IMG/VR virus record: IMGVR_UViG_3300026519_000065
Coordinates: 1-22,991 of that record
Reading direction: 5' to 3' (one strand)
Source: a virus
Length of the DNA stretch: 22,991 nt
Positions within the stretch are counted from its first letter, which is position 1, and the number at the start of each line of letters is the position of its first letter. The translations under genes and the position numbers were made by a program. Shown here one piece after another: positions 1 to 17,122 of this stretch. The notes beneath the pieces are model-generated. The model was not told the origin of the DNA, made no database searches, and was given only the letters and a program-made list of their open reading frames with translations.

Positions 1-1257
1 TTAACAGAAAATGACACGCCGATTCAGAGAATCCCATTCGAGTTTTCAACAGATATTGATTATATCAAGGTTTACACTGATAAGATCACGCTCGGGGCTG
101 AAGAATATGCAGGAACATTCACTGCCGACATTTCCCATACAAGTATCAGCTCTAATGTGCTTATGGCGGATGGCGTCCATGGGATTGCGCGCACTGACGG
201 CACGCAGATTGTTGATGCTGCATTCACGACCGACACAGGCAAGCCAAGCTCGGAATTTGATGGCATATTCTCGCACCAAGACCGCCCATACGCTTGGGAT
301 AGCGATGATCTCGCATTCTATTATGGCGACGTTGGTGCCGTTACCGGCCAGCTAACGCGCTTCCCGCTCGATAGGCTTGGGAATATAAACGGCACAATAA
401 CAATAATAACGTCAATGACCGTAAACGCTGCCCACGGCATGAACGATATTCTGGTTATCGTGACGAGCACGGGATGGATTGTTCTATATGAGGGGATTGA
501 CCCAGGAGATGCGCTCGATTGGCGATTGCTTGGCCGCGTTAAGGGCGCGGCACCAGTATCTAAATTTGCGGTTCATTCATTCGGTGCTGACCTCTGGCTT
601 TTAACCGTGCGTGGCATTATTTCTGTGAGGGAAAGCCTCCAGCGAGGCGTTTTTGCCCTGACCTCGCCAATGTCTATGGCAATATCTGACCTTGTTATTG
701 CTGATATTAAGACTGGTAAATCCCTTCGCGGCTGGCAAATGATTGCGCGACAAGATGAAGCCCAGATTTTCTTAAATGTTCCAACTATATCGGGATTTAA
801 GCAGTATATCTATGATGCAAACGCAGGCGCGTGGCAGACGTCAGATTACGATGCACGCTGGCTTCACGATCTTGATGGCAATCTTGATTTCACCACGTCC
901 AGCGGTGACCTATGCCGGATCGGAGCCGCAGGCGACAACGGCGCCAGCATTACCGCAGAATTCTACACATCTTGGATACGGCTTCCACGCGCTTCTGAAC
1001 TTTCCTACCTTATACCAACCATAATTGCTGATTCCGAATTAGTGGTTAAAATCACTGTTTTAACGGATCACAACGACACCGCCGGAGACGTTGCGCAGGC
1101 CGAGCAGACTGTGACCATAAGGCCGGACAACGCGGGAACTCAGGTTTCGCTAGATGATCTTATCGGGGTGAACGCCAGCGGCAGAGTGTTTCAGGCGCGT
1201 TTCGAGATAACGGGGGCAAAATTTTCGTTTGAAAGCCTAATCGCGGGGGTGGTGTGA
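1..1257 (+). CDS. Beta-propeller-like phage virion protein (nozzle / DNA-stabilisation type), 5' end missing
   Basis: The reading frame is open from base 1, so the gene begins outside the window and only its last 418 codons are seen. The first in-window ATG (157) has no convincing ribosome binding site and should not be taken as the start. The product is rich in short beta-strand stretches with spaced Trp, Tyr and Gly (for example LAFYYGDVG, WIVLYEGIDPGD, LWLLTVRGI). This is the look of the propeller proteins that close the DNA channel in short-tailed phages, such as P22 gp10 and tail tubular protein B. No catalytic motif is visible. Its stop overlaps the GTG of the next gene in GTGA, which suggests translational coupling. 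Its position just before an S74-domain protein and a giant ejection-type protein fits a tail or neck component. The family is inferred from general look and context, so a generic tail protein is also possible. Confidence 0.6.
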   Translation, partial: LTENDTPIQRIPFEFSTDIDYIKVYTDKITLGAEEYAGTFTADISHTSISSNVLMADGVHGIARTDGTQIVDAAFTTDTGKPSSEFDGIFSHQDRPYAWDSDDLAFYYGDVGAVTGQLTRFPLDRLGNINGTITIITSMTVNAAHGMNDILVIVTSTGWIVLYEGIDPGDALDWRLLGRVKGAAPVSKFAVHSFGADLWLLTVRGIISVRESLQRGVFALTSPMSMAISDLVIADIKTGKSLRGWQMIARQDEAQIFLNVPTISGFKQYIYDANAGAWQTSDYDARWLHDLDGNLDFTTSSGDLCRIGAAGDNGASITAEFYTSWIRLPRASELSYLIPTIIADSELVVKITVLTDHNDTAGDVAQAEQTVTIRPDNAGTQVSLDDLIGVNASGRVFQARFEITGAKFSFESLIAGVV

Positions 1258-1727
1258 TTTTGGGTGAAATGGTTGGCAATGTTGTTTTTGGGTCAGATAT
1301 GGAGGTGGCCGATTGGGTAGCATCGCATATCCCAGAATTTAAGGTGGATGAAAATTCAACGGCACTCGGGGTTATACGCGATGGTGAGTTGATCGCTGGC
1401 GTGATTTATGAGCGCTACAATGGTGTCCATGTTGAGGTGTCGATTGCGACAGCAGACCCGCGCTGGGCAAAGAGGTCAACCCTAAAAACCCTATTCGGAT
1501 ACCCGTTTAATCAGTTGCGATGCAAAGCAATAACGGTTTTAGTGCCATCGAGCAATATGGAATCGCTAAACTTGGCGACAAAGCTTGGGTTTCGACCTGA
1601 AGCATTTATAAAATATTCCGCACATGATGGCAGCGCTCTGGTAGTGTTGAAGATGTTCAAAGAGGACTGTCATTGGATTGAGGAGAAGAACTATGGCCAA
1701 AGGCGGAGCAGCACCAACACCACCTGA
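1254..1727 (+). CDS. GNAT-like N-acetyltransferase
   Basis: This 157-residue protein resembles the small GNAT acetyltransferases often found among phage structural genes. Such enzymes move an acetyl group from acetyl-CoA to an amine on a protein or small molecule; the substrate here is unknown. What can be seen is a central beta-rich core (LGVIRDGELIAGVIYERYNG), a middle region with ADPRWAKRSTLKTLFGYPF, and a C-terminal NLATKLGFRPEAFIKY block. The last matches the usual NxxSxxLxxKLGFxxEG end of the fold. The start is GTG at 1254, overlapping the previous stop as GTGA with a G-rich stretch 5 bases upstream. ATG at 1269 is the alternative. The end runs 35 bases into the next gene. The acetyl-CoA loop (R/QxxGxG/A) is poorly preserved, so activity is uncertain. 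A decayed copy of part of this gene may lie at 14840-14887. Confidence 0.65.
   Translation: MILGEMVGNVVFGSDMEVADWVASHIPEFKVDENSTALGVIRDGELIAGVIYERYNGVHVEVSIATADPRWAKRSTLKTLFGYPFNQLRCKAITVLVPSSNMESLNLATKLGFRPEAFIKYSAHDGSALVVLKMFKEDCHWIEEKNYGQRRSSTNTT
1590..1647 (+). repeat. Repeat copy A, within the acetyltransferase gene (partner at 14840-14887)
   Basis: This segment shares an ordered series of exact blocks with 14840-14887: TTTCGAC, TTATAAA, ATATTCCGCACA and TGGTAGTGT, separated by small insertions or deletions. Here it encodes the C-terminal strand region of the acetyltransferase. Found by eye; significance was not calculated. Confidence 0.5.
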
Positions 1728-2760
1728 TCCATACAAGACGGCGGCGGTGGAGGCCAGTTTTAACCGGACAGATACATTCAGCCCTAACGGGTCTGGCGTG
1801 CGAAATGGCTACACCGACGCAAACGGAAACTTTGTGGCGGGTGTGGCCCCAGAAGGCTTCCAATCTGCCACTTCATACATCGAGAGCGCATCCGACAAAT
1901 CCAAACGGGAATTACTTGACCCTGCATCCGTGGCGCTGACGCAGCGCCTACTCGCAGACAACACAGGCAGCAATATGCCTGGACCTGCTCGGGTGCGTGA
2001 CTTTTCCAGCATGGCCGATGATATTTTTAATGCCGGATATAATCGTATGCAGCCGCAATTTGATGCGCAAAATAACCGGATGCTTGCGAACTTACAGGCG
2101 CGCGGTATTCCAGTTGGGTCCGAAGCTTTTGGCGAAGCCTATAACCAGCAACAGGGTAGCGTAAATGACGCGATGATTAAGCTTGCTATGGATGCTAAAA
2201 TGGCCGCAGGTGGCGAGCAGTCTCGACAGTTTAGCCTTGATTCAGCCCAACGCGGCGGAGCGTTGAATGAGCTGGCTACAGCCATGAGCGGCGGTTTAAG
2301 CCCTGTATCACAAACCCCGAGCGGGAACCAACCCGGGGTTAATTACTCTGGCCTTGTCGGTCAGCAATATAATGCTCAATTATCGCAATACAACAATCAG
2401 CAAGCCAACCGGTCCGCCAATATGAGCGCGCTCGGGTCTCTTGGTGGTGCGCTTCTTATGAAGTGCTCTGTTTCTGCGAAGGCTATTACCGGAGACCTAA
2501 ACGCGCGCGGCGCTGCTAATGCCATTCAGAACATGCCTCTTTTTGCATGGCACTATCGAGAAGGCGAGGCCCCCGAGGGAATGGGCCAAGAAACCCATGT
2601 TGGGCCGATGGCGGAGAGCTTCCACGGGCTAACAGGCTTGGGCAGCCCAGACACGATCAGCGTTATTGATATGCTTGGTGTGGTCACTGGCGCGCTCAAA
2701 GACGCGCTACAGCGCATTGATGTTCTTGAGCATAAAATGAAAGGCGGGAGGGTCCACTAA
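1693..2760 (+). CDS. Virion protein with C-terminal S74-type (intramolecular chaperone) domain
   Basis: A 355-residue structural protein. The start at 1693 is chosen because AGGAG lies 7-8 bases upstream, at 1681-1685. The N-terminus (GGAAPTPPDPYKTAAVEASF) is the Pro-rich opening seen on small virion proteins of short-tailed phages. The middle is Ala/Asn/Gln-rich and helical, with QPQFDAQNNRMLANLQARGI near residue 120. Residues about 258-355 look like an S74 auto-processing chaperone domain: an LFAWHYRE strand, then HVGPMAESF in the place of the family's GxIAQEV, and a terminal helix ALKDALQRIDVLEHKMK. In known S74 proteins a Ser-Lys pair cleaves the domain off after trimer folding. Here the Ser position appears to be Cys258, with Lys263 five residues on. 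It overlaps the acetyltransferase by 35 bases and shares TAATG with the next gene. Confidence 0.7.
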   Translation: MAKGGAAPTPPDPYKTAAVEASFNRTDTFSPNGSGVRNGYTDANGNFVAGVAPEGFQSATSYIESASDKSKRELLDPASVALTQRLLADNTGSNMPGPARVRDFSSMADDIFNAGYNRMQPQFDAQNNRMLANLQARGIPVGSEAFGEAYNQQQGSVNDAMIKLAMDAKMAAGGEQSRQFSLDSAQRGGALNELATAMSGGLSPVSQTPSGNQPGVNYSGLVGQQYNAQLSQYNNQQANRSANMSALGSLGGALLMKCSVSAKAITGDLNARGAANAIQNMPLFAWHYREGEAPEGMGQETHVGPMAESFHGLTGLGSPDTISVIDMLGVVTGALKDALQRIDVLEHKMKGGRVH

Positions 2761-3497
2761 TGGCGAAAATGGGGAACACAGGCGGCATGACGATTCCGCC
2801 GCGCCGCGATGGTGTAGCGCGGACAGGCACCATGCAGAACGGCCTTATGAGCGGCTTGAACAACCTCTTGCCAGCACAGGGGTCGAAGGAACGCTACGAC
2901 ATGGTGATGCAGCTCGTTAATTCTGGCTTGGGAGCCGCGAGCCAGTCTAACTCGCCTCTTGCGAACCTGCTCGCCCCATTAGCGGGTGCGGCCATTGGCG
3001 GCGGGGCGACACGGAAATATAACGATGCGACCGAAGCGCGCAATAGCGAGATGGCGAACTCCCTACTTGGCAGCATGGCAGGCAACCCGCAGGCACAGGC
3101 ATACCTTACGGCCCTGAATGACCCTAATACGCCGCCTCACTTGCGCGCTATCGCGCAAAGCAAGCTTGATGCACTTATGACACCGCCGAGCCGTGGGGGT
3201 GACGGTGGGTATAGTGGTGGTCCTGCACCGTTTACAGCACGCAATACCGATGCGCTGATTGCGCAGGTTCTTCAAGCCGCCATGGGTGCAGGTGGCGATG
3301 GTGGCGAAACCGTTACAGCAGCCGAACAAGCGCGCATTGATTTGATCAAGAACGCGCGCAGCCGGATGGGCGCTTCTTCTACCGCACCTGTTGTTGATGA
3401 GCTGACGGGGTTGCTTAATGGCGGACCGAACCCACCAGCCATGCCAGCGCCACAAATTTCCGACCCAAACTCTGATCCATTGGGGATATTGAATTAA
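2760..3497 (+). CDS. Ala/Gly-rich phage protein, probably a minor internal virion protein
   Basis: The 245-residue product is not assigned to a named family. It is rich in Ala, Gly, Asn and Pro. A helical, weakly hydrophobic stretch at about residues 59-82 (NSPLANLLAPLAGAAIGGGA) could act as a glycine-zipper membrane segment. It is followed by helices around SLLGSMAGNPQAQAYLTALN and a flexible Pro-rich tail ending SDPNSDPLGILN-like. The start ATG shares its A with the stop of the S74 gene (TAATG), and the stop is directly followed by the ATG of the giant gene. That tight spacing between two ejection-type genes suggests a virion or scaffolding partner of the giant protein. Function is inferred only from position and composition. 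Confidence 0.6.
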   Translation: MAKMGNTGGMTIPPRRDGVARTGTMQNGLMSGLNNLLPAQGSKERYDMVMQLVNSGLGAASQSNSPLANLLAPLAGAAIGGGATRKYNDATEARNSEMANSLLGSMAGNPQAQAYLTALNDPNTPPHLRAIAQSKLDALMTPPSRGGDGGYSGGPAPFTARNTDALIAQVLQAAMGAGGDGGETVTAAEQARIDLIKNARSRMGASSTAPVVDELTGLLNGGPNPPAMPAPQISDPNSDPLGILN

Positions 3498-6400
3498 ATG
3501 GGCATTTTAGACGAATATCGCAGACAAAATCCACAATACAAAGACATCAGCAACAACGCGCTTGCTGATGCAATGTATGATAAATTCTACAGCAACATTC
3601 CACGCGAGGAGTTTGATGCAAAGGTTGGGTATGCCCAAACCCTGCCGCGCATTCCAGCCACGCCGGAAAGCATGGCCGGTGAAATCGCGCAGCCATATAA
3701 CCCTGTTGCCAGAACTCCGATGCAGATTCGTGGTCTTGAGGATCGGGATGCGATGGATGGAGTTGGATTTGGTTCTGACCAAACTTCACCAATTATGACA
3801 GATGTTAAAGCTGGTGAATATTCTGATCAGCTTGGAGGTGTTACGTATGGTCAGCTTACTGACATGCGGAATCAGTCATCAAACATGACACTCTTTGGCA
3901 TTGGCAGCCAAGAAGATGTTGGGTATGGGATAAACCCAGCAATATCAAGCTCTGAATTTGGGCGCGGGTTTGAATCTGGGGTTACCGGACTGAAGCAAAT
4001 GGTCGTCGCTGCATCCACGATACCTCTCAGTGGAATGACAACTGTTCTCGGAGAGCGCCTGTCGATGTATGATAAGGTAGATGCGCTTCCGCAAGGGCTT
4101 GAGCGTTGGCAGGTTGCGGAAGCATTGGGCATTTCCCCAATGAACTACGCTTCAAGTCTTGCGGATGATTACTACCATGGCGATGCGAAAAGGCGCGGAG
4201 ACCACAGGTCGCGCGCCCTAAGAATGATCACCTCAAACGAAGAGCTTATGCGGCAGATTGTGGCGCTTCATAAGCAATATTCTGATGAGATGCAGGCAAT
4301 GACAGGCCGAGTCCCGAATTTCACAGATATTAACGATGTGAATGATTTTGTTGATTGGGCTGCTAGCTCCACAGGTCAGGCGATACCGTTCTTGGGAGCT
4401 ATAGCCGCGTCCGGCGCGCTCGGTGGTGCTCCCGCAATTGGCGCGGCTGGTTATGGCTTGGGTGCTGGCGACCTGCAAAGCTCTCTCATGGATGAAGGGA
4501 TAACAGATAGGGGTGATCTCGCACTGGCCGGAGCCATACCTTACGCAGCATTGGAATACCTAGGACCGGCTGCTTCAGCCTTCAGAGGTGTCTCCAACAA
4601 GGTCATCAAGGAAGTAGCACGTGGGTATTTTCGCAGATTAGGACGCGCTATCCCTCAAAATGCAGTTGAGGAATTTATCAATGAAGCCGGGCAGGGAATA
4701 ATTAGCGATATTGCTGTTGGCGAGGGAACTGGTGATGGCGTTACACTTGATGATGAGACGCTGCTAAGTTGGTTTAATCAAGGAATGGCTGGGGCTATTG
4801 TTGGTGGTGCTGGTGGCGTCCTACACGCCTCTGTTGGCGGCAGGAATACCCCCGCAGCCCCACAAGTCACGCAGCCAGCCGCGCCGCAACCTCCCACGCA
4901 GGGCGCACCTATAAATGCACCAAACGGCCCGCAGGCAGCGCCAAACCAAGCGCAGCCACAGCAACCGCAACAACCAGATGTAACGCAACCACCGGCCACG
5001 CCGGAGACCGCTGCCCCGCAGCAACCGACGCCGCAAGAAATGGCGGACGGGTTGGCGGGCGCAGCAACCGCCCCCGCCAGCCCCGCTACACCAGAAGCGC
5101 CAGCACAGCCACAAGAACCAGCCGCAACACCGGAGGCACCGCAGCAACCCGCAGGGGATACTGCTGCCAAGCCTGACCGCTCGATGTTTGACGCCAAGGA
5201 ATGGCAAGAGATCGAAAGCATTGTTGGTAGCGGCGATAACCGCAATGACGCGACAGGTCGCACCGTCATGTATAACGCCCGCACGGGCGAGACCATGCAG
5301 ATGGATAAATTCGCCGAGATGGTGGCAGACCGCGCCGCACCGGACGTGCAGGACACTGCACCAAATGCTCCTACCGCACCATCCACCCCACAATCAGGGG
5401 AAAGTGGCAATGTGGGTTCTGTGCAGCCTGCCCCGCAAGAGGTGCAAGCTCCACAACAACCTGTTGCCCAGGGCGCAGACGCCCCCGCCCAGCCGGACAC
5501 TGCGCCCGCACCGCTACCAGAAAGCGCCGCACCGCCGAAAGAATCGCCAAATAGTGCTGAAACCGCTGTTGATACGCCTTTACCCCCCCCAGAACAAACG
5601 GGGCAAGAGAATCAGCCAGCGCCTGTTACCCAAAAGCAGGCTAACGGCGCACTCCCCGATGGTCTGCGCGCCGTGCGCCGAAACCCAGACAACAGCAACG
5701 AGTGGACGCTCTTGGGTGATAATGCGGACCCTGTTGGCACGTTCACCTCCACAGCGCAGGACGGCATTGACGCGCAAACCTTTGAGCGTATGCGCGCTTC
5801 CGCCGCGACCTATAACCAAAACCGCCAGCGCGGCGCAGATGGTGGACCCGTGCAAATGCAGAACGAGGTATTGCCGGACAACAGCAATCGCGTTCCCCCG
5901 CAGGTAGCACCGATGGACCGCAGCCTGTCGCAGGCCGGTGCATACTGGGATGGCATGTCATCGGGGCAACGCGAGAATTTCCTCCGGTCCATGAACCCGA
6001 ACGGCAAGGCAGATGTGCGCGAACGCTTCATTAAAATGCCATGGTCAGAGATTTCGGACAACGTGCGGATGGCAATCACTGAAAAGCTGCCTAATGGCGC
6101 GTTTCAGCAATCCGAGCAACAAAAGCCTGCCGCTGATCTTGACACTATCGCTAAAGAGATATTCCAAACCTATCAGGATTTTAGCCCGCAGGTGGCTTCA
6201 AAACTCATGGCGCGGCGCGGGCGTGAGAACGGCCTGACAGATGCGCAGGTTGCGGATGTGACGGAAAAAGTTAAGGCGCTCAGGAAGCAGGGCCGCTCCA
6301 CCAGCGAAGAATTCACACAAAAATCACAGAGCGAACCAGTTACCGACCGCGAAAAGGCTATGGCCGCGCTGCCGGATGGCTTTTCTTTGATCGAGATCAG

Positions 6401-9400
6401 GAGGCGCACCAACGATTACCGCGCCATTGTGGAAATGGACGCCAACAGCAAGCGCGAGGCCGGAACAGGCGAAACGCCGGAAAGCGCTGTTGAGGTGGCT
6501 GCACGCCTTCTGGAAATTAGGAACCCGCAGAAGCAAGGCGCAGCGGCGGACCCAGCATTCAAGGCAGCTCAGGACAGCGGCAAGCTTCAGGTTGTTCATG
6601 TCGGCCAGCCGGAGGGCGGAATATCCAAAGCAGAACCGCGCATAATTACAAAAGCGGAGTGGGACAAAACACACAGCGACTACAAAAGCGTTATCGACGG
6701 ACAAAAGCACATCCTTGAGCTTGATAAAAAATCGGGTGCCACGGTCTTGTCGCCGGTAGATGTTGCCTCACCTTACGAAGATAATTCTATGATAGACGCC
6801 AGACAAGGCCCTCACTATGCGAGCGGACAAAAGGCAGCTCGTGATGGAATGAGGCGAGAATTACCGTCATACTTCACCAAACAGCGCGGTAAAAATGCAA
6901 AAGATTGGTATCGCGGATATGACAGCTTTAAGTCAGAAGCAAGCCCAACAACCGCCGAGCAGATCGCATCTGAGGCAGCACAGGCCGATACCAACCCGAC
7001 GGACGCGCAAAAAAAGGCCGCGCCCGAAAGCGCGACCCAAGTCCAACAGGGAGGTATGAATCCTGATGCAGTAGCAGGGCTTCAACAGCCAGACAATGCC
7101 ACAGACTTGGCCGCAGATCAACCCACGGTCTCACTTGGTAAGCGATTGGCTGAACTTATGGGGTCCAGCGCGTTCCCGAGCACAAATATCAAACTGATGA
7201 AAATGGCGGCGGAGGACTTCGGCGGCACTATTGCCGAGGGTAAATTCTCCCCGAAAGATGCATATGAAGGCTTAGAGTTGGCCATGAATATGTGGATTGC
7301 AAAAAAAGGCTACGAGCCTTCCGTGGATAAGACTGCCGCTAAAATGATCGTCGTCAAGTTGCAGGAGATGACTGAAACCCTGCCAACACAGACTCGCCTC
7401 GATGGTGAAACCGATGCCTTCCAGCAATTCAGCACACCGCCTTCCTATGCCTTTGCCGCAAATTGGGTGGCAAACATCCAAATGGGTGAGCGAGCACTCG
7501 AGCCTAGCGCGGGGAACGGCGGCATTGCCATATTCGCAAAGAATGCTGGTGCTAAAGTTGATGTGAACGAGATTGCCGCGCGACGCGCCCCGTCGCTTAA
7601 GGCACTTGGCTTTAACCGCGTCACAAAAGAGAACGCTGAGCAGATCGCCAATATATGGGCAAAGGACCCATCTCGCAAATATGACGTAGTGGTGATGAAC
7701 CCGCCATTTAGCGCCAGCGGTATCCGTGGTGGCAACAACACGTCTGCCACGGGCGCGCAACACATTCAGCAGGCGCTTGACCTTATGAAGCAGGGCGGGC
7801 GTCTGGTGGCGATTATGGGCCACACGTTCCATCCCGGCAATTCCCGCGTGTCCAAATTCTTCAAGGGATTGGATGGGGAATACACCGTTCAAGCTAATAT
7901 TGAGGTCAATGGCTCAAAGGTGTATACTAAATATGGAACATCTTACGACAACCGGATTTTGGTGATCGACAAGATGGCCGCGCCAGAAGGCCATAAGACA
8001 CTCGGGGGGCGTGCTGAAACCATACCCGAATTGATCGACATGATGGAGGATATTCGCAATGTCGCCAACGACCGAAGCACAAAGAATGGCACAGATTCAG
8101 ACCCTCAAGGGATCTCGAGTCGAGAAGAGGGCCGAGCACCTGCTGAAGATGGCGGGCAATCCAGAGACGGAAAGCCTAAGCGCGTTCCTGAGCCTGATGG
8201 TGTGGGGCGCGAGACAGACGGGGCAGGACGACATCGCGGAGATGATCCTGCAAATGGACAGAGAACTCGGGCCAAAGAAGGCCGCGAAGGAGTTGATGGC
8301 AGGAGAGAAACCAACGAAGTTGATGGAGGAGCTAGGGCCAGCGGAAGCAGCCGAGCAGCTTCTTCTAATCGTCAGCGAACAACTTTAGAAGATGCAAAGG
8401 CATATGAGGTCGAAGACGTATCCGGCGGATTTTCAAAATACCGTCCTTCGCGCGTGCGCGTTAAAAATGCGGTAGAGCACCCAATGCAGTTGGTGGAATC
8501 CTCTGCCATGGCCTCCGTTAATCCACCGCGACCGAATTATGAAATTCAGCTTCCCGAGGCTATGGTCAAAAAAGGGCTTCTTTCTGAGGCACAACTTGAA
8601 ACCGTTGTTTATGCTGGGGCGGCGCATTCCGAAATGCTCCCCTCCGATGCGCAGAACCCTGCGCGGCGCAAAGGCATTCTTATCGGGGATGGCACCGGCG
8701 TTGGCAAAACGCGCGAGATTGCGGGTATTATCGCGGATAATTGGGCGCAGGGGCGCAAAAAACACATCCTGATTTCCAAGGATAAAAAGCTGATCAAGGG
8801 CGCGCGACGCGATTTTGATAATGTCGGTATGAATAGCGTGCCGATAAACGACCTTGGCTCGGTTAAGGCAGATGGCGAAGTTAAAAAAGGCACCCAAGGC
8901 GTTATGTTTGCCACATACTCCACCATTGGGCGCGCGGCGGCAGATGGTAAAAAGTCCCGCCTTGATCAGTTGGTTGATTGGGTTGGCCCTGACTTTGATG
9001 GCACGATCACATTTGATGAAAGCCACTTGGCGGGCAATGCTCTTGCGGTAAAAGGGAAGCGCGGCACCACCAAGCCTTCAGCCACGGCCCTTGCTGTTGT
9101 GGACTTGCAAAACCGGCTTCCCAACGCGCGCGTGGTCTACGCCTCCGCTACGGCGGCAACAGAGGTCCACAATCTCGCCTATGCAAACCGCCTTGGCATG
9201 TGGGGGCCTGGAACGCCCTTCCCTACCGTGAACAGCTTTGTTGAGCAAATAAACAAGGGCGGGATAGCGGCAATGGAAGTCGTTGCCCGTGATATGAAGC
9301 AAAGCGGCGTTTATATCGCACGGAACCTATCTTTCGATGGGGTTGAATACGCCAAGGTTGAACACGAACTCACCGCCGGGCAGCGGGAAATGTATGATGC

Positions 9401-12400
9401 AGCCGCAAAGGCATGGCAGAGTATTTTGCAAAACATATCGACGGTTATTGAAGAGCACACAGATGGTGGCGGGAGGCAACGCGGCGCAGCGCTTGCTCAA
9501 TTCTGGGGGACACACCAGAGGTTCTTCCAGCAGGTTCTCACGTCCATGCAAATGCCGACCATTATTGCGGCAATCAAAAAGGATTTGGATGCGGGAATGT
9601 CTCCCGTCATCCAGTTGGTAAACACCAACGAGGCGGCAGTGAAGCGCGCCATGTCGAAAATGCAGGAAGGCGATACGTTTGATGATATTGATATTTCTCC
9701 GCGTGACGATATTATCCAGTATCTCGAAACGTCTTTCCCAATAAATCAGTTTGAGGAATATACCGACGATAGCGGCAACGTGAGAACACGTCCGGCACAA
9801 GATTCAAAAGGGAACTTCATTGTGAACGCTCAAGCCGTGCGTATCCGCGATGAAATGGTTGATAAGTTGGCCTCAATGGTTCTGCCCGGCAACCCGTTAG
9901 ATATGATCATAGATGAACTCGGGGCAAGCAATGTGGCAGAAGTCACGGGCCGCACGCTGCGCGTTATCAATAAAGGCGGGAAAAAGGTCAAGGAGCGCCG
10001 TAGCCAAAGCAAGGCGTTAGCAGAGGCGCATGAGTTTCAGGCGGGCAAGCGCAAGGTTTTGGTGTTCTCTGATGCGGGCGGCACAGGCATGGACTTCCAC
10101 GCAGATAAAAGCGCCAAAAATACGGCACGCCGCGCTCACTATGTTTTGCAAGCGGGATGGCGGGCCGACAAGGCAATTCAAGGTTTTGGCCGGACCCACC
10201 GCACCAACCAGGTATCTGCGCCGATTTACAAGCTGGCAGGAACAAACCTTTCCGGCCATAAGCGGTTCACATCCTCAATAGCACGTAGGTTGGACCAGCT
10301 CGGGGCGCTAACCAAAGGACAGAAAGACACGGGCGGCGGCGGTATGTTTAATGCCACGGACAACCTTGAGAACGAATTTGCCGATGTTGCAGTTATGGCG
10401 CTATTCAGGGATATTTACGCGGGCAATGTCGATGGCTTTACAATGGCTGACGTTGATTCTGAACTCGGCATAAAAATAGCGGGTGAAAGCGGCTTCAACA
10501 ACACCGCCGTTCCAAGCGTTCCTCAATTCCTAAACCGCCTCCTCAACGTCTCTATCGACCGTCAAAATATGCTTTTTGATCGCTTTATTGAGCATATGGA
10601 GATCGCTGTGCAGACCGCGATCGACAACAACGAATATACGGCCGGCGTTGAGGAAATCACGCATGATGGTGCTGTTTTGGAGGAAACAAAGCAAGCATAC
10701 CGCGACCCCGTGACGGGCGCGACATCGGAATACCGCATGATCAATATCACTCGAAAAGTGAAAACAATACCATTCGCGCAGTTGGTCAGCACATTTAGGA
10801 ACCTGAAATTCAAAAAAAGCAACGAGACAGGCACCGTTTACGCCTTCCGCCCTGCATCATCTCGCACAAATGATCGCGGGCAGGTTATCCCGACATATCA
10901 CCGATTTACGGCGACAGACCGAACCATTATTGACAGTGACAAATACCGCTTTCAATACTCCATGGTTGAGGAGAAGGAGGCAGAGGCAGCATGGGGCCAA
11001 CAGATTAAAGATGCGCCGAGCACGCGCGACGAAACTATCCACCTTGTCACAGGAACGCTTTTGCCAATATGGGACCGCCTGCCAAGTAGAAGCCCGAAGA
11101 TTGTGCGGCTGAAGCTTGATGACGGACGTTCTCTGCTCGGTCGCCAGATACCAGATGTTGAACTTGAACGGACATTGGAAAATTTGGGTGTTGACGCTCC
11201 GGAGATAAACCTAAGCGCACCTGAAATACAAAAGGCGGTTATGGACGGAAAAACAATTCTGCTTTCCTCCGGCCATAAGATTGTGCGCCGCCGTGTTGGT
11301 GGCGAACTTCGGATTGAGGTCATCACGCCTCCGGGCGACTATTCCGGCCCCGATGGCTTGCGCCGCGCTGGCTTTAATGTAGAGCGTATCCAGTATAAAA
11401 ACCGCATATTCGCAGCCACGGGCGAGGCTGGCGTTGCACCGCTGGAAAGCCTGATGATGGGCAAGCGCATTGTCAGTGTGACCATGAGCAAAGAACGCCG
11501 CCCCAAAACAGGAATGATCCGGCCATACGGGAACCTCTCTGATGGTTCGCCTGTTTTCAAGAAATTCCGCGCTGAGCTTGACCGCATGGGTCTCAAAAAT
11601 GTGGAATTGCAATTCAACCCTGATTTCGGAGTGCCGGGGGGCATTACTGGCGACCATTTCGGACATATCACAATTACCATTGGCGATACGCTGAACCCGA
11701 AGTGGACAATGGCACACGAGTCCGTCCACGCCTACAAACACATGGGTGTTTTTACCGCCGAAGAGTGGTCAATCCTTGAGGCTGAAGCCAAAAGCGTATG
11801 GATGAAGCGTTACTATATTCGCCGCCGATACCCCAACCTCACCCGCGCCGAGCAGTATGAAGAAGCTGTTGCCGAGGCATTTGGCGAAGCCTATGAGCGG
11901 CGCGGTCAATTCCACACAGAAAGCGCGGTGCGCGCGGCGCTGGGCAGGATTAACAATTTCTTGAAAGCAGTGCGAAGCTGGGCCAAAGGGCTTGGCATGA
12001 AATCACCATCCGATGTTTTCGAGGGGATCATGCGGGGCGAGTTTAAGGGCCGGAAGGCCATAAGAGACTGGACTAGCCAGACCGGACGCCTGATGAAGCA
12101 CCAGCGGCGTGCAAGCGATATAGAGCACACAAGTGGCGCGCTGCACATCCCTGACCGATATGTGTTTGACGAGCTGATCAATGGGAATGGCACGATATTT
12201 GAGCGGGTTATGGCGGCAAAGCGCGCTATGGGAGACCGGATTGATTGGGGGGTATTTGGGACAAAACACGGCAAGGAAAACTCAGCGTTTTTCAGCCGTG
12301 TGCGCTTGCAGGATTATTTCCTGCCCTTCCTGCGCGCCAATGAGTTGATCGAGCGCGAAACCAATGGCAAAGTTCCTGATGATCTGAACGTCTATGACAC

Positions 12401-14849
12401 CGAGGGCTTATATGCTGGCCGTGTCGGCTCTCGCCTTGGCGATATTCGCAGAAAATACACCATGCCCATAATTGGCATCATCGGCAAAACGCGCGGCATG
12501 ACCATGGAAACGGTTGGTGATTATCTTACCGCCATGCACGCGAAAGAGGCCAATGCTCACATCGCAAATATCAATCATGATATGCCAGATGGCGGGTCCG
12601 GCATGACAAATGCTCAAGCAGAAGCTATTCTGGATGCTGTTAAAGATAGCCCGCAAGCCTCCGCTTACCAAGATATTTCCGTCCTGATTGGTAAAATGCG
12701 GGAAGAATCGATTGATATGCGCGTGGAGTCAGGGCTGATATCCGAACATGAGGCCAGCGCATGGCGAAACAGTTATGCCCATTATGTCCCGCTCAAAGGC
12801 TTTGCGGAAACCGATTATGCAGATGCTTCGCTTGATATTAACGGTATCGGGCGCGGTTACAATGTGCGTGGTCACGAAACAAAGCGACGGCTCGGGCGAA
12901 AATCTGCCGCCTTTAACCCGCTGATCTCCGCCATAACTCAGGCCGAAGAGGTGGTGGTGCGAGCCGAGAAGAACCGTGTTGGTCAGGTGATGTATCAGAT
13001 GGCCAAGGACTTTCCGACAAATGGCCTATGGCATGTAAAGAAAACAGAGACTAAGCCCGTGTTTAATGAGGCTACAGGGCTGGTTGAGGAACGCTCTGTC
13101 GCGCCAATTTCTCTGATCATGGCGCAAAACGAATTGGCCGTTAAGGTGGATGGGCAAGAGCACCGGATAATCTTTGATGACATGCGCCTTGCCCGGGCCG
13201 CAAGCCGGATGGGATCGGCCCGCCTTGGCGACATAATGGTTTATCTGTCGAAATTCAGCCGATACTTTTCGGCCATAAATACCATGCTTAGCCCGACGTT
13301 TATTGTGAAAAACTTTGTGCGCGACATTGTAACCGCCTCGATCAATATATCCTCCTACGAAAATGGCGGGAAAATCAGAAAGGGGATGCTCAAGGATGCC
13401 CCAAAGGCATTTATGGGCGCGTGGCGCGGGCAGGGTGGAAAATTCGATACCGAATATTCGAGATATTATCGGGAATACGATCAGGGCGGCGGCAAGGTGT
13501 CGTTCTGGACCGTGGACACGCCGTCGGTTAACCAGAAGCGCCTTGAGAAGCTGATGAAGGCCAAAACTGGCGGGGTCGCGCGAAAATCGCTAAACCTGAT
13601 CACGCCAAACTCAGAAATCAATCCTATTATTGGCGGGATAGAGCGGATCAACTTGGCAGTAGATAATGCCATTCGCCTATCGGCCTATGTGCACGCGCGC
13701 AAAAACGGGTATTCAGCGGAAAAGGCTATGTTGCTGGCGAAAGACTTGACGGTAAACTTCAATCGGCGCGGCGAGTCCGGAGCTGCCATGAACGCGATCT
13801 GGACATTCTCAAATGCTGGTATGCAAGGGCTTCACATAATGATGCGAGCGCTCAAAAGCCACAAAGTAAAGGCTATTGTCGCTGGCATGGTGATATTCGG
13901 GTTTATGTTGGACCAAGCCAACGTCTACCTCTCTGACGATGATGATGACGGCGAACTCTATTACGATAAAATCGCAGATTATAAGCACGAAATGTCGGTG
14001 ATGTTGATGCTTGGCCTTGAGCCGGATTCGGCGAAAAGCGCTGCCGCTCTTTGGATGCCGTATGGTTATAATGTGTTTCCATACCTCGGAAACCGTTTAA
14101 GCCAAATGTATCGCGGGAAAGTTACTGGTGGAAAGGCATTTGGAGATGTTGCTGCAGCAGCCTTCAATTCATTTGTGCCGATTTCCGGCGGTGACTTGAT
14201 GGCGACGGCCACGCCAACAATCCTCGACCCATTTATTGAGATCGCCAGAAACAAAAACTTCCTTGGATGGGCAATTCACAACAACTATCCAAATCAGCGG
14301 GGGCCGAATTCCGAGCAGACAGCAATGGGCAACCCGTCCTTGGCCTCGCAGTTTATCGCCCAGAAAGTCAACGCATTCACAGGCGGAACATATGCTGAAA
14401 GCGGATGGGCTGACTTTTACCCGCAGGACATCGACCATATCGGCGGGTTCCTCACCGGCGGGGTGGGCCGGTTCTTCGGGCGGTCAAGCGACATCATTGC
14501 GAACCTGCTAAATGGGAATGATATTGAGGCCGGACAGGTGCCATTGGTGAGAGACCTATACCTGCCGCCGGACCAACGCGCAGATCGACGTCTTTATTTA
14601 GACCGCTCTTCCATGATCAAAGAGGCTTATGCTGCAGCAAAGGCTTATTACGATGCTGGCGACCCTATACCTGAGCGCGTAAGATGGGTGGCCGCTCTAA
14701 ATGATGTTCGGCGCGAGGCGGCGCGGTATTATCGTGGGTCAGCACGAACCCCGAGAGACAGAGAGAGCGCGTATTATATTCTGAATAAGGCATATGTTGC
14801 CGCATGGAAAGCGAATACAGCCTATAGTTCGAACTCGATTTTCGACTGA
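3498..14849 (+). CDS. Giant polyvalent protein: ejection N-terminus, RMF-like, N6-adenine methyltransferase, SNO-type helicase, metallopeptidase, LPD38-like C-terminus
   Basis: A 3783-residue protein of the large polyvalent class, related in plan to P1 DarB. Residues 1-45 carry the YPQY-like motif of podovirus ejected proteins (RRQNPQYKDISNNALADAMY). Glycine-rich hydrophobic stretches at 291-330 and 422-449 could enter membranes. Residues 450-717 are mostly Pro/Gln/Ala-rich linker. ALPDG modules start at 718 and 957, and an RMF-like segment lies at 1107-1143. The methyltransferase has EPSAGNGG (1335-1342) and NPPF (1401-1404). The helicase has GDGTGVGKT (1730-1738), DESH (1840-1843), SAT (1883-1885) and QGFGRTHR (2228-2235), as in Strawberry-notch proteins. 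A metallopeptidase-like HESVH lies at 2740-2744 with an EEAVAEAF helix after it. The C-terminal ~800 residues look like LPD38, with a hydrophobic stretch near 3457. Probable role: ejected with the DNA to modify it and block restriction. The ribosome binding site is weak. Residues 1521-1629 are overprinted by another gene. Confidence 0.9.
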   Translation: MGILDEYRRQNPQYKDISNNALADAMYDKFYSNIPREEFDAKVGYAQTLPRIPATPESMAGEIAQPYNPVARTPMQIRGLEDRDAMDGVGFGSDQTSPIMTDVKAGEYSDQLGGVTYGQLTDMRNQSSNMTLFGIGSQEDVGYGINPAISSSEFGRGFESGVTGLKQMVVAASTIPLSGMTTVLGERLSMYDKVDALPQGLERWQVAEALGISPMNYASSLADDYYHGDAKRRGDHRSRALRMITSNEELMRQIVALHKQYSDEMQAMTGRVPNFTDINDVNDFVDWAASSTGQAIPFLGAIAASGALGGAPAIGAAGYGLGAGDLQSSLMDEGITDRGDLALAGAIPYAALEYLGPAASAFRGVSNKVIKEVARGYFRRLGRAIPQNAVEEFINEAGQGIISDIAVGEGTGDGVTLDDETLLSWFNQGMAGAIVGGAGGVLHASVGGRNTPAAPQVTQPAAPQPPTQGAPINAPNGPQAAPNQAQPQQPQQPDVTQPPATPETAAPQQPTPQEMADGLAGAATAPASPATPEAPAQPQEPAATPEAPQQPAGDTAAKPDRSMFDAKEWQEIESIVGSGDNRNDATGRTVMYNARTGETMQMDKFAEMVADRAAPDVQDTAPNAPTAPSTPQSGESGNVGSVQPAPQEVQAPQQPVAQGADAPAQPDTAPAPLPESAAPPKESPNSAETAVDTPLPPPEQTGQENQPAPVTQKQANGALPDGLRAVRRNPDNSNEWTLLGDNADPVGTFTSTAQDGIDAQTFERMRASAATYNQNRQRGADGGPVQMQNEVLPDNSNRVPPQVAPMDRSLSQAGAYWDGMSSGQRENFLRSMNPNGKADVRERFIKMPWSEISDNVRMAITEKLPNGAFQQSEQQKPAADLDTIAKEIFQTYQDFSPQVASKLMARRGRENGLTDAQVADVTEKVKALRKQGRSTSEEFTQKSQSEPVTDREKAMAALPDGFSLIEIRRRTNDYRAIVEMDANSKREAGTGETPESAVEVAARLLEIRNPQKQGAAADPAFKAAQDSGKLQVVHVGQPEGGISKAEPRIITKAEWDKTHSDYKSVIDGQKHILELDKKSGATVLSPVDVASPYEDNSMIDARQGPHYASGQKAARDGMRRELPSYFTKQRGKNAKDWYRGYDSFKSEASPTTAEQIASEAAQADTNPTDAQKKAAPESATQVQQGGMNPDAVAGLQQPDNATDLAADQPTVSLGKRLAELMGSSAFPSTNIKLMKMAAEDFGGTIAEGKFSPKDAYEGLELAMNMWIAKKGYEPSVDKTAAKMIVVKLQEMTETLPTQTRLDGETDAFQQFSTPPSYAFAANWVANIQMGERALEPSAGNGGIAIFAKNAGAKVDVNEIAARRAPSLKALGFNRVTKENAEQIANIWAKDPSRKYDVVVMNPPFSASGIRGGNNTSATGAQHIQQALDLMKQGGRLVAIMGHTFHPGNSRVSKFFKGLDGEYTVQANIEVNGSKVYTKYGTSYDNRILVIDKMAAPEGHKTLGGRAETIPELIDMMEDIRNVANDRSTKNGTDSDPQGISSREEGRAPAEDGGQSRDGKPKRVPEPDGVGRETDGAGRHRGDDPANGQRTRAKEGREGVDGRRETNEVDGGARASGSSRAASSNRQRTTLEDAKAYEVEDVSGGFSKYRPSRVRVKNAVEHPMQLVESSAMASVNPPRPNYEIQLPEAMVKKGLLSEAQLETVVYAGAAHSEMLPSDAQNPARRKGILIGDGTGVGKTREIAGIIADNWAQGRKKHILISKDKKLIKGARRDFDNVGMNSVPINDLGSVKADGEVKKGTQGVMFATYSTIGRAAADGKKSRLDQLVDWVGPDFDGTITFDESHLAGNALAVKGKRGTTKPSATALAVVDLQNRLPNARVVYASATAATEVHNLAYANRLGMWGPGTPFPTVNSFVEQINKGGIAAMEVVARDMKQSGVYIARNLSFDGVEYAKVEHELTAGQREMYDAAAKAWQSILQNISTVIEEHTDGGGRQRGAALAQFWGTHQRFFQQVLTSMQMPTIIAAIKKDLDAGMSPVIQLVNTNEAAVKRAMSKMQEGDTFDDIDISPRDDIIQYLETSFPINQFEEYTDDSGNVRTRPAQDSKGNFIVNAQAVRIRDEMVDKLASMVLPGNPLDMIIDELGASNVAEVTGRTLRVINKGGKKVKERRSQSKALAEAHEFQAGKRKVLVFSDAGGTGMDFHADKSAKNTARRAHYVLQAGWRADKAIQGFGRTHRTNQVSAPIYKLAGTNLSGHKRFTSSIARRLDQLGALTKGQKDTGGGGMFNATDNLENEFADVAVMALFRDIYAGNVDGFTMADVDSELGIKIAGESGFNNTAVPSVPQFLNRLLNVSIDRQNMLFDRFIEHMEIAVQTAIDNNEYTAGVEEITHDGAVLEETKQAYRDPVTGATSEYRMINITRKVKTIPFAQLVSTFRNLKFKKSNETGTVYAFRPASSRTNDRGQVIPTYHRFTATDRTIIDSDKYRFQYSMVEEKEAEAAWGQQIKDAPSTRDETIHLVTGTLLPIWDRLPSRSPKIVRLKLDDGRSLLGRQIPDVELERTLENLGVDAPEINLSAPEIQKAVMDGKTILLSSGHKIVRRRVGGELRIEVITPPGDYSGPDGLRRAGFNVERIQYKNRIFAATGEAGVAPLESLMMGKRIVSVTMSKERRPKTGMIRPYGNLSDGSPVFKKFRAELDRMGLKNVELQFNPDFGVPGGITGDHFGHITITIGDTLNPKWTMAHESVHAYKHMGVFTAEEWSILEAEAKSVWMKRYYIRRRYPNLTRAEQYEEAVAEAFGEAYERRGQFHTESAVRAALGRINNFLKAVRSWAKGLGMKSPSDVFEGIMRGEFKGRKAIRDWTSQTGRLMKHQRRASDIEHTSGALHIPDRYVFDELINGNGTIFERVMAAKRAMGDRIDWGVFGTKHGKENSAFFSRVRLQDYFLPFLRANELIERETNGKVPDDLNVYDTEGLYAGRVGSRLGDIRRKYTMPIIGIIGKTRGMTMETVGDYLTAMHAKEANAHIANINHDMPDGGSGMTNAQAEAILDAVKDSPQASAYQDISVLIGKMREESIDMRVESGLISEHEASAWRNSYAHYVPLKGFAETDYADASLDINGIGRGYNVRGHETKRRLGRKSAAFNPLISAITQAEEVVVRAEKNRVGQVMYQMAKDFPTNGLWHVKKTETKPVFNEATGLVEERSVAPISLIMAQNELAVKVDGQEHRIIFDDMRLARAASRMGSARLGDIMVYLSKFSRYFSAINTMLSPTFIVKNFVRDIVTASINISSYENGGKIRKGMLKDAPKAFMGAWRGQGGKFDTEYSRYYREYDQGGGKVSFWTVDTPSVNQKRLEKLMKAKTGGVARKSLNLITPNSEINPIIGGIERINLAVDNAIRLSAYVHARKNGYSAEKAMLLAKDLTVNFNRRGESGAAMNAIWTFSNAGMQGLHIMMRALKSHKVKAIVAGMVIFGFMLDQANVYLSDDDDDGELYYDKIADYKHEMSVMLMLGLEPDSAKSAAALWMPYGYNVFPYLGNRLSQMYRGKVTGGKAFGDVAAAAFNSFVPISGGDLMATATPTILDPFIEIARNKNFLGWAIHNNYPNQRGPNSEQTAMGNPSLASQFIAQKVNAFTGGTYAESGWADFYPQDIDHIGGFLTGGVGRFFGRSSDIIANLLNGNDIEAGQVPLVRDLYLPPDQRADRRLYLDRSSMIKEAYAAAKAYYDAGDPIPERVRWVAALNDVRREAARYYRGSARTPRDRESAYYILNKAYVAAWKANTAYSSNSIFD
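7010..7034 (+). other. Possible -1 frameshift signal: A AAA AAG plus small GC hairpin
   Basis: In the frame of the giant gene the codons read CAA AAA AAG, which puts the heptamer A AAA AAG in the phase used by the dnaX frameshift site. Two bases later CGCGC and GCGCG (7019-7023, 7030-7034) can form a 5-bp stem with a CCGAAA loop. A shift would reach a TGA at 7064-7066 and give a product of roughly 1190 residues, ending between the RMF-like segment and the methyltransferase. The stem is short and close to the heptamer, so this is a weak candidate. Confidence 0.25.
8045..8049 (+). promoter_or_regulatory. GGAGG ribosome binding site for the nested gene at 8059
   Basis: A perfect GGAGG lies inside the giant gene, 9 bases before the ATG at 8059. 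In the giant gene's own frame it merely encodes part of MMEDI. It is one of the best Shine-Dalgarno matches in the window and decides the start of the overlapping gene. Confidence 0.6.
8059..8388 (+). CDS. Overprinted small helical protein nested in the giant gene (+1 frame), family unknown
   Basis: A complete 109-codon gene lies in the +1 frame inside the giant gene, from ATG at 8059 to TAG at 8386-8388, with GGAGG 9 bases upstream. The product is not recognised. It looks like a folded helical protein, with 15 Leu, 8 Met and amphipathic stretches (AEHLLKMAG, LSAFLSLMVWGAR, DDIAEMILQMDREL). ELGPxxAAxxL occurs twice, from residues 69 and 91. The giant protein over the same bases (residues 1521-1629) has no Leu, Phe, Trp, Tyr, Met or Cys, one Ile, and is rich in Gly, Arg, Asp and Ser, so it is a disordered linker between methyltransferase and helicase. 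Codons in the nested frame favour CTG, GAG and AAG and end mostly in G or C. The layout suggests a partner or regulator made separately from the same transcript. No signal peptide or clear membrane segment is seen. Confidence 0.7.
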   Translation: MSPTTEAQRMAQIQTLKGSRVEKRAEHLLKMAGNPETESLSAFLSLMVWGARQTGQDDIAEMILQMDRELGPKKAAKELMAGEKPTKLMEELGPAEAAEQLLLIVSEQL

Positions 14850-14856
14850 TTATAAA
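14828..14856 (+). promoter_or_regulatory. Weak sigma70-like promoter candidate before the tail-fibre genes
   Basis: TATAAA at 14851-14856 matches five of six bases of the -10 consensus. TTCGAA at 14828-14833 matches three of six of the -35 box, with a 17-base spacer. It lies at the only AT-rich gap between the giant gene and the tail-fibre genes. The same TTATAAA is part of the repeat shared with the acetyltransferase gene, so the match may be incidental. Confidence 0.25.
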
Positions 14857-14887
14857 TATATTCCGCACAAACATTCCTTGGTAGTGT
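14840..14887 (+). repeat. Repeat copy B: decayed relic of the acetyltransferase 3' region
   Basis: This matches 1590-1647 through TTTCGAC, TGA, TTATAAA, ATATTCCGCACA and TGGTAGTGT in the same order, with indels between blocks. It covers the last codons of the giant gene (including its TGA) and most of the 65-base gap that follows. In one frame it reads YKYIPHKHSLVVYLW, close to IKYSAHDGSALVVLKM in the acetyltransferase, but the blocks are not all in one frame, as expected for a relic. CACAAA (14866-14871) and TTTGTG (14889-14894) could pair as a weak hairpin. No terminator with a T-run is present. Confidence 0.45.
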
Positions 14888-14914
14888 ATTTGTGGGAGAA
14901 ACTTGGAGAGAGCC

Positions 14915-15595
14915 ATGAGTTACAACAGCGCGACAAAGACAATCATACGAGGTTACAGGTTCACCACGGCATTAGACGCTGAAAGTGGCGACCCGATAAC
15001 ACAGGCGCAGCACGATGCAGCGCATGACGAGGTTGTGGCGGACGTTAATGCCATGCGCGCCGATATAGCCAGCGCCAGCGTGATTATCGACAATTTCACT
15101 GGAGATGGGTCTACGACAACTTTCGCGCTAACAGGATCTCCAGTGGACGAAAATACTCTGTTTATCCATATTGATGGCATCTACCAGAACTTGGACACCT
15201 TATCGCTTATCGCAGGGGACTTGGTTTTCTCTGCCGCGCCACCGAACTTGTCAGACATCGAAGTGAAGCAATTTTCAACGCCTCCGGTATCAAGATCCGT
15301 GACCACATTTTTAGCTGGCGACACCACGCCTTCTGTTCTTGGCGGGCTGGTTTTTCTGACGGACGCGGGTTCGATCACGATCACAGATTTTGATGACGGG
15401 GCCGCTGGGCAAGAAATTACTATCATATCCAAGGGCGCAGTAACATTCGACACCACGGGAACAGACCTCACGGGTAGTTCTGTTGATCTGGTGACAGCTT
15501 CCGGCGATGTGACGCGCTGGGTGTGTGAGGATGGGACCACTTGGCGCTTGATGGGTTTTGTTAACGCATCCGCAGATAACTCGGTGGGGGCATAA
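14915..15595 (+). CDS. Phage tail-fibre / appendage protein
   Basis: A 226-residue protein. The ATG at 14915 is chosen because GGAGAG at 14905-14910 is correctly placed; an in-frame TTG at 14903 is less likely. After a short helical N-terminus (about residues 24-48), residues about 55-115 carry NFTGDGSTTTFALTGSP and IHIDGIYQN. This repeated module of phage tail fibres has the form FtGDGsTttFtLs...v.idGvyq. The second half has a beta-strand-rich segment (TPSVLGGLVFLTDAGSITIT, then TWRLMGF) of the kind found in fibre shafts and baseplate appendages. It is the first gene after the 65-base gap and ends 3 bases before the next fibre gene, so the two are probably co-translated and assemble together at the tail tip. 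Confidence 0.75.
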   Translation: MSYNSATKTIIRGYRFTTALDAESGDPITQAQHDAAHDEVVADVNAMRADIASASVIIDNFTGDGSTTTFALTGSPVDENTLFIHIDGIYQNLDTLSLIAGDLVFSAAPPNLSDIEVKQFSTPPVSRSVTTFLAGDTTPSVLGGLVFLTDAGSITITDFDDGAAGQEITIISKGAVTFDTTGTDLTGSSVDLVTASGDVTRWVCEDGTTWRLMGFVNASADNSVGA

Positions 15596-15598
15596 ACC

Positions 15599-16975
15599 AT
15601 GGGCTTGACCAAACCATTTAACCGCATGAATGGAAGCGTTTTCAACGCCACCTCCGAAGTCCCTGCCAACTTAACGGTTGGCACCTACATCACCATTGCC
15701 GGAGTGACCAAGGAGGTTGTTTCCACGGGCGAGGACGAGACCGTTAACAGCAACAAGCTCCGCAATGTCGCGCCGGGGCGAAAGAACGTGCGTGCGAAAT
15801 CAACTAATTACTCGGTCCAAGCCGACGATGATGGCGCGGTGATAAAATGCGATTCATCCTTCACTGTATCCTTGCCAGCGGCAGCATTGCTTCCCAATGG
15901 CTGGTTTGTTGATGTAATCTCCGTGTCTGGAGATGTGGTGATTGATCCAAATGGTGCCGAAGTTATAGATGGGGCATCCACCGTAACACTATCGTCTGGT
16001 CAGGATTGCAGAATTACGTGTAATGGGTCGGCCTTCTATTCCCAATTTCTCTCAAACACAAGATTGGAAAATATAGTAGAAGATGCCACGCCGCAGCTCG
16101 GCGGCGCGCTGGATGCAAATGGCAATTCTATTGATCTGTCTCAAGGTGCGGACGTGGCCAGCGCGGCGGAGCTGCTGGTTTTGCGCGATGGTAACAGCTT
16201 TGACGTTACGGGCGCGGTGACTATTTCCAGCATCGAGGACACGGCAGATGCTTGGCCGATTGGCTCGGTGATTACACTGAAATTCGATGATGCACCTCTA
16301 TTGGCGCACCACGCAACGAACCTTGTCTTGCTCGGGGGCGCTGACATTCAAACGGCGGCTGGCGATGTGGCCATATTCCAGAAATACGCTGCCGGTGATT
16401 GGCGAATGGTGAGCTTTAGCGGGATTAGCGCTACGACTGGCTGGCAGGCTGGCACAAGCACCAAGCCAAGCTTGGCAAGCCCTGCCAATATCGCTGCGTC
16501 CATCGGTGCCTTGCAGCGAAGCCCCGCGCCTGATTTGATGGTAAGCTTTGAAACAACATCCGGAACTGCGGGAACCTCGGGCATTCCGGCGGCGCTTACC
16601 TTGCTACCATTAAACACTGTAAACAGGAATGTTATTGCAGGGGTGTCGCTCGCATCAAATGTAATTACCGGGCTGCCTGCCGGGGATTATTACATAGAAT
16701 GGTTAGTAAATTTCCGCCGAGCTGGTGCTTCTACAGCACTGGTCCAGACGGACATTTATGACAATCTTGCAGCAGCTCGCGCGGTCCCAGGCATATCAGA
16801 TCAAATCGGGAGTTATGATGCTGGAGTGATTGCAGGCGCAGGATTTTATTCACCAGCCGCAACCGCCGACTTGATCCTGCGAGGCTATTCCAATTCATCC
16901 GGCACCACAAATGGCGCGCCTACGGCGAGCGGCTCGCCAAACGTGATCAACATCGTGAAACTATGGAAACTGTAA
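15599..16975 (+). CDS. Tail-fibre protein with C-terminal jelly-roll-like domain
   Basis: The product has 458 residues. Residues about 62-145 contain the common fibre module that starts with NYSVQADDDGAVIKCDSSFT and VSLPAAALLPNGW and ends near GSAFYSQ. At about residues 163-180 the motif EDATPQLGGALDANGNSIDL is the widespread fibre linker TPQLGGxLDxNGNxI. The last ~125 residues, starting near LLPLNTVNRNVIAGVSLASN and ending INIVKLWKL, look like a C1q-like jelly-roll cap used by many phages to bind receptors. A G-rich ribosome binding site (GGTGGGGG) lies about 8 bases before the ATG. The gene is followed within 10 bases by another small gene. Role inferred: trimeric fibre with shaft and receptor-binding tip. 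Confidence 0.75.
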   Translation: MGLTKPFNRMNGSVFNATSEVPANLTVGTYITIAGVTKEVVSTGEDETVNSNKLRNVAPGRKNVRAKSTNYSVQADDDGAVIKCDSSFTVSLPAAALLPNGWFVDVISVSGDVVIDPNGAEVIDGASTVTLSSGQDCRITCNGSAFYSQFLSNTRLENIVEDATPQLGGALDANGNSIDLSQGADVASAAELLVLRDGNSFDVTGAVTISSIEDTADAWPIGSVITLKFDDAPLLAHHATNLVLLGGADIQTAAGDVAIFQKYAAGDWRMVSFSGISATTGWQAGTSTKPSLASPANIAASIGALQRSPAPDLMVSFETTSGTAGTSGIPAALTLLPLNTVNRNVIAGVSLASNVITGLPAGDYYIEWLVNFRRAGASTALVQTDIYDNLAAARAVPGISDQIGSYDAGVIAGAGFYSPAATADLILRGYSNSSGTTNGAPTASGSPNVINIVKLWKL

Positions 16976-16985
16976 AGAGGCCATT

Positions 16986-17111: not shown

Positions 17112-17122
17112 AGGGGGAACCA

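Follow-up and report, generated by a model that had tools for sequence, protein, structure and literature searches.

A conserved, unannotated gene nested out of frame within methyltransferase-helicase giant genes of phages and plasmids

The comS gene of Bacillus subtilis, a regulator in one bacterial lineage, is a small out-of-frame gene with its own start inside the giant multidomain gene srfA. Nested out-of-frame genes are also a known kind in phages, with Rz1 in Rz and E in D as examples. In the lambda Rz/Rz1 spanin gene pair the architecture is embedded, i.e., Rz1 lies inside Rz in the +1 frame (PMC6139136). Gene E of phiX174, which encodes a lysis protein, overlaps internally with gene D, the latter being the frame predicted to be ancestral (PMC8227390). 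Giant polyvalent proteins, on the other side of the comparison made here, include the DarB-kind proteins, virion components that protect the incoming DNA, as well as a cited Methylomonas strawberry-notch polyvalent protein (PMC5512222). No description of a nested gene in polyvalent or DarB-type genes was found in that paper, in which the word "overlapping" is absent.

The DNA analyzed here (the window) is the 22,991-nucleotide stretch from positions 1 to 22,991 of the IMG/VR virus record IMGVR_UViG_3300026519_000065. An initial annotation of this DNA had singled out a 109-codon ORF at 8059-8388 with its own ATG, in the +1 frame of a giant gene and with a GGAGG 9 nt upstream, all of which was borne out on the sequence. 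The features referred to below are as follows.

3498..14849, + strand: giant polyvalent-type gene, 3783 aa, with methyltransferase, strawberry-notch helicase, and LPD38 (Pfam)
7491..7865, + strand: methyltransferase small domain (MTS) of the giant, residues 1332-1456 (Pfam PF05175)
8041..8043, + strand: TGA in the frame of the small gene, 6 codons 5' of its ATG
8045..8049, + strand: Shine-Dalgarno (SD) sequence GGAGG, exactly 9 nt 5' of the ATG, within giant codons M-E-D
8058..8387, + strand: giant-frame reading of the nested-ORF DNA, a Gly/Arg/Ser/Asp-rich linker without aromatic residues
8059..8388, + strand: nested gene, +1 frame relative to the giant, ATG start, 109-aa acidic helical protein (comparative evidence, AlphaFold)
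8475..9401, + strand: AAA_34 (strawberry-notch NTPase) domain of the giant, residues 1660-1968 (PF13872)
9891..10652, + strand: Helicase_C_4 (strawberry-notch C-terminal) domain of the giant (PF13871)
13962..14549, + strand: LPD38, large polyvalent protein associated domain, of the giant (PF18857)

The giant gene is of the same kind as the polyvalent proteins and the DarB methylase-helicase dyad (PMC5512222), since a single chain combines the dyad with an LPD-type domain (MTS, AAA_34, Helicase_C_4, and LPD38). It also lies among virion or transfer genes, with endolysin, head closure, neck, tail terminator, and major tail genes downstream in the window and with TraF, topoisomerase III, and conjugative DNA transfer genes nearby in its plasmid relatives. 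A few genes 5' of the giant, at 1254-1727 (+), an acyl-CoA N-acyltransferase gene (phrog_4470, E 1.8e-44) adjoins a lysis-type amidase gene. At 5188-5907 (+), a further open frame of 239 codons, in +1 like the nested gene, underlies the Pro/Ala/Gln-rich N-terminal region of the giant, which is highly diverged among relatives.

The nested ORF is wholly contained in 3498-14849 in a different frame, and Pfam places it in the linker between MTS and AAA_34, i.e., between methyltransferase and helicase as originally proposed. The linker had been described as having no Leu, Phe, Trp, Tyr, Met, or Cys; this holds for the latter five, and the sole Leu is the last codon, at the stop of the ORF.

The open frame alone is no evidence of a gene because the +1 frame of the window stays open in 60% of synonymous randomizations of the giant (P 0.60); openness is likewise not significant in one of two close phage relatives, L003 (P 0.49). 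Single sequences would therefore be compatible with a chance open +1 frame in a GC-rich, Gly/Arg-rich giant linker, a reading that is refuted by the conserved homologous protein, the conserved start site, and the reversed codon-position pattern documented below, and to which we attach a negligible probability.

Two phage contigs retrieved by the helicase search, L003 and L004, are 77 and 76% identical to the window over the helicase and have a homologous +1 ORF, with SD and ATG at the same codons as in the window. The nested ORF is also found in four gammaproteobacterial, conjugative-type plasmids, from Methylomonas (two), Methylotuvimicrobium alcaliphilum, and Thioflavicoccus mobilis, and is absent from the alphaproteobacterial and cyanobacterial plasmid relatives having short linkers. 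Linker length is at least 176 residues in ORF carriers versus 67 to 144 in relatives without it, the excess being about the length of the ORF. Carriage of the nested ORF goes with long polyvalent giants; plasmid proteins of ∼1,450 to 1,580 aa that consist of methyltransferase and helicase only lack it. Among the first seven sequences, identity was higher for the small protein than for the giant linker in all nine within-group pairs, for example 54% versus 28% between the window and L004 and 53% versus 28% between L007 and L017 of the plasmid group. Direct profile comparison of the window trio (the window, L003, and L004) with the plasmid group was not significant (hhalign probability of 0.4%; 300 of 2000 shuffled-column trials as good), the relatedness of the two being resolved because a larger family, described next, joins both groups. 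In T. mobilis pTHIMO01 (L017) the giant looks broken, its frame coming to a stop after the helicase and resuming in other annotated ORFs, while the nested ORF is intact. The linker of Methylomonas sp. AM2-LC (L008) has ∼100 extra residues downstream of the nested ORF.

The wider survey used 72 IMG/VR loci retrieved with the helicase profile, 68 of them informative once two re-finds had been dropped along with two contigs whose linker was not intact. A +1 ORF was present in the linker at 66 of the 68, in the same frame and slot (at one locus, L073, it was located by the family profile and not by the automatic pick). The remaining two, L070 and L080, are near-identical to each other and have a long viral giant without the nested ORF; they sit within the tree of ORF carriers, i.e., a natural loss lineage. 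Stops scattered through the +1 frame of long-linker homologues, which the initial annotation had named as evidence against a gene, were therefore not the pattern encountered, the frame being open in all but one intact-linker lineage. On the helicase tree (79 rows), the distribution of the nested ORF needs 3 changes versus 12.4 with shuffled labels. A single blastp cluster comprises 52 of the 69 unique small proteins. Searched against 11,242 six-frame ORFs, a profile built without the window, L003, and L004 found the window ORF at E=4.6e-6, L004 at E 2.1e-4, and L003 weakly (0.04), with no match outside the slot; seven ORFs in the slot were not linked to the family by profile. No standalone copy of the small gene was found in the 19 whole virus records searched. 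Four phage methyltransferase giants without this helicase (L100 to L103) gave no family-profile match in the first 175 residues after the methyltransferase, where the sequence looks ordinary. Near position 4001 of L073, the giant helicase has an intein-like insert ending in ...FVNHN before TGVGKGREIAG at the P-loop; the match in L063 (4001-7255) is ∼1 kb too long, perhaps owing to a similar insert.

Variability across giant codon positions is reversed over the nested ORF. Position 3 was the least variable inside the ORF (0.15 to 0.34) in nine of nine pairs, versus the most variable in both flanks (0.52 to 0.79), and the most variable inside was position 1, which serves as wobble base for the +1 frame. 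When the window giant was scanned against its two relatives, a clear reversal was confined to 8037-8399 along the alignable part, the N-terminal third being poorly alignable. In an ORF-blind test with 49 pairs chosen on giant-flank identity alone and aligned as nucleotides, blind to frame, position 3 varied less than position 1 in 47 of 49 pairs inside the ORF, compared to 3 of 49 at the methyltransferase end and 0 of 49 at the helicase start. The +1-frame constraint anticipated across 8059-8388 is hence present. No reversal was seen (44/371) in 371 pairs with giant-flank identity of at least 0.60 aligned in the giant frame, pairs mostly too diverged to align in the linker, and small-protein identity was above that of the giant in only 132 of them; we read this lost signal as saturation and low-complexity alignment because the closer ORF-blind, frame-blind pairs do give it.

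The giant frame is also maintained. Across 67 sequences it contains 0 stops over the ORF, against 350.9 expected if the small protein alone were constrained, and the third frame has 626. This bears on a reading in which only the small frame matters, the region being three genes with the giant not translated through. Although such a reading would be in keeping with the abnormal codon usage and fast divergence of the giant linker, the giant frame is open in all 67 sequences, and the methyltransferase and the helicase share a single frame in phages as well as plasmids, making three separate genes very improbable. Sequence evolution shows purifying selection on the +1 protein, conservation of its start site, and a giant frame that is likewise kept open; therefore, as far as sequence can tell, both proteins are made, with the nested-ORF DNA probably also read in the giant frame, where it would specify a flexible linker.

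A +1 ORF at the corresponding slot was also found in Bacteroides phage BS-TP4 (L014), whose record has a single 16-kb gene at 1511-17686 annotated only as "hypothetical protein." This ORF recurs in 14 IMG/VR relatives, its ATG conserved at giant K-T-N/D-G and preceded by a stop 6 to 11 codons upstream. Of 102 pairs, many of them not independent, 86 varied less at position 3 than at position 1, compared to 0 and 0 in the flanks. The encoded protein has no detectable sequence relation to the first family and no convincing match to known families, and a second small protein, apparently unrelated to the first, thus occupies the slot in Bacteroides-type phages.

The start site of the first family is strongly conserved. 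Nested starts are almost always at the same giant codons, L-L-E-G-I/V-R-N/D, with N or D as the giant residue at the ATG in 67 of 72 relatives. The start codon is ATG in 70/72, and an SD core of at least 4 nt precedes it in 67/72, so that the loss of ATG and GGAGG in relatives, which had been raised as grounds for doubt, was not found. An in-frame stop is located no more than 30 codons upstream of the ATG in 69/72, at a median distance of 7 codons. These data weigh on the possibility that the giant undergoes programmed frameshifting to yield a fusion of methyltransferase and small protein, as might be imagined for an ORF that starts where the methyltransferase ends. Because the small-frame stops sit so near the ATG, with one codon between in L007, L036, L064, L067, and L098, there is almost no room for a frameshift; the short stop-to-ATG distance in the Bacteroides-type relatives argues in the same direction. 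Conserved ATG, SD, and upstream stop favor internal initiation, and frameshifting is, in our estimation, highly unlikely. Independent translation of the small protein by internal initiation, at the conserved SD/ATG near the end of the methyltransferase domain, is very probably the mechanism.

Taken together, the ORF is contained within another gene in a different frame, has its own conserved start and SD, and both frames are under selection. The conserved ATG/SD, the +1 protein, the reversed variability, and the open giant frame give strong support to the proposal that the giant gene also encodes a separate small protein, and 8059-8388 is almost certainly a true protein-coding gene, out of frame inside the methyltransferase-helicase giant gene. 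To the whole of this reading, i.e., a nested gene, internal initiation, and a giant read through the same DNA, we assign a probability of roughly 0.9.

The codon-usage score over the ORF was 0.118 when read as the small protein and -0.233 when read as the giant, versus 0.200 elsewhere in the gene; codon usage is thus ordinary in the small frame and abnormal in the giant linker. Together with the longer linker of the carriers, this suggests that the small gene is of greater age and that the giant is read across it. On this evidence the odds are about even that the small gene came first and that read-through of it gave rise to the linker. The overprinting frame may then be the giant, which refines the initial view of a gene overprinted within it. 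Like E in phiX174, the nested gene sets a Leu-rich product against the composition of the other frame, but in E/D it is D that is predicted to be ancestral, whereas the codon evidence here points to the small frame.

The small protein has a median length of ∼120 aa and a median pI of 4.76 (range, 4.05 to 9.79; above 7 in 4/67). AlphaFold modeling of a typical member with 47 family members gave an all-helical structure with a pLDDT of 83.6 and a pTM of 0.80; the model of the window copy, from three sequences, was weaker (68). No fold match was found in PDB or BFVD below E 0.001 (Foldseek), and no sequence family match in Pfam, PHROG, NCBIfam, or PDB. tblastn with three members turned up nothing convincingly related among about 50,700 phage records, nor did scans of genome contigs find a match. 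Several hits were dismissed as chance: NCBIfam EstT with one member (E 3.5e-4; 19.8 bits versus a cutoff of 450), scattered single-member Pfam/PHROG matches, an Aeromonas phage tblastn match (E 0.8), Acinetobacter htpX matches, and a Rhizobium match located in unrelated genes.

The window product has no Cys and hence no lipoprotein signal with the lipobox Cys of an o-spanin Rz1. As in Rz/Rz1, a small gene is wholly inside another's +1 frame in a conserved arrangement; the Rz/Rz1 products are functional partners. Unlike Rz1, an outer-membrane lysis lipoprotein and the unstructured, Pro-rich member of its pair, the nested protein here is the predicted structured one and is encoded in the middle of the gene for a DNA-processing giant.

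The nested product, small, acidic, and helical, would be made alongside the giant from one shared mRNA, and since such a protein encoded inside its neighbor's gene most simply serves that neighbor, we tentatively propose that it acts as a dedicated partner of the giant, at somewhat less than even odds. The occurrence of the ORF in the long polyvalent giants and its absence from the two-domain plasmid proteins are in line with this proposal. It could be a chaperone, assisting in folding, holding, or delivery, or could inhibit the giant in the cell that makes both, ahead of packaging or transfer. The roles put forward in the initial annotation, binding of the giant or an action early in infection, may likewise apply. 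In its manner of working it would resemble T3SS or VirE1-like delivery chaperones, which are also small, acidic, helical, and encoded with the client, with no homology implied. An independent counter-defense factor, e.g., an acidic DNA mimic merely sharing the DNA and expression timing of the giant, might be suggested by the acidity and fast evolution of the small protein and by the link of its host gene type to antirestriction (PMC5512222). However, its net charge is modest (median, -6.4), some members are basic, and the family and fold searches gave nothing that would place it with the DNA-mimic antirestriction proteins Ocr or ArdA; strict linkage to the giant and the absence of standalone copies fit a dedicated partner better, leaving counter-defense as the main rival but an unlikely explanation. 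Extending the partner proposal to both families, the methyltransferase-strawberry-notch genes of at least two bacterial phyla might have a dedicated out-of-frame partner slot used by two seemingly unrelated families, one in Pseudomonadota plasmids and related phages and the other in Bacteroides-type phages, with the linker an overprint of a once-separate partner gene between the methyltransferase and helicase genes. This is possible, though we regard it as doubtful.

The nested ORF represents a real, conserved, and unannotated gene family. No annotation of the nested gene was found, and the small gene was missed because annotated records list only the larger frame. It resembles comS in srfA as a small gene set out of frame inside a giant multidomain one; unlike comS, it occurs across phages and plasmids and is tied to the linker between methyltransferase and helicase. 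Going by the open-licence literature, there appears to be no earlier description of this gene family, of its fixed start site, or of its presence in phages as well as plasmids. An undescribed protein family is thereby added to the well-studied class of injected anti-defense giants, and mobile elements (dozens of uncultivated phages and four plasmids) appear to make an extra protein from within the giant gene. The arrangement occurs in culturable hosts, Methylomonas and Methylotuvimicrobium, and also in Bacteroides phage BS-TP4. It provides a clean natural case of an ordered protein and a disordered linker on shared DNA with a conserved start site, and with about 70 unique sequences, frame age, dual-frame constraint, and co-evolution become measurable.
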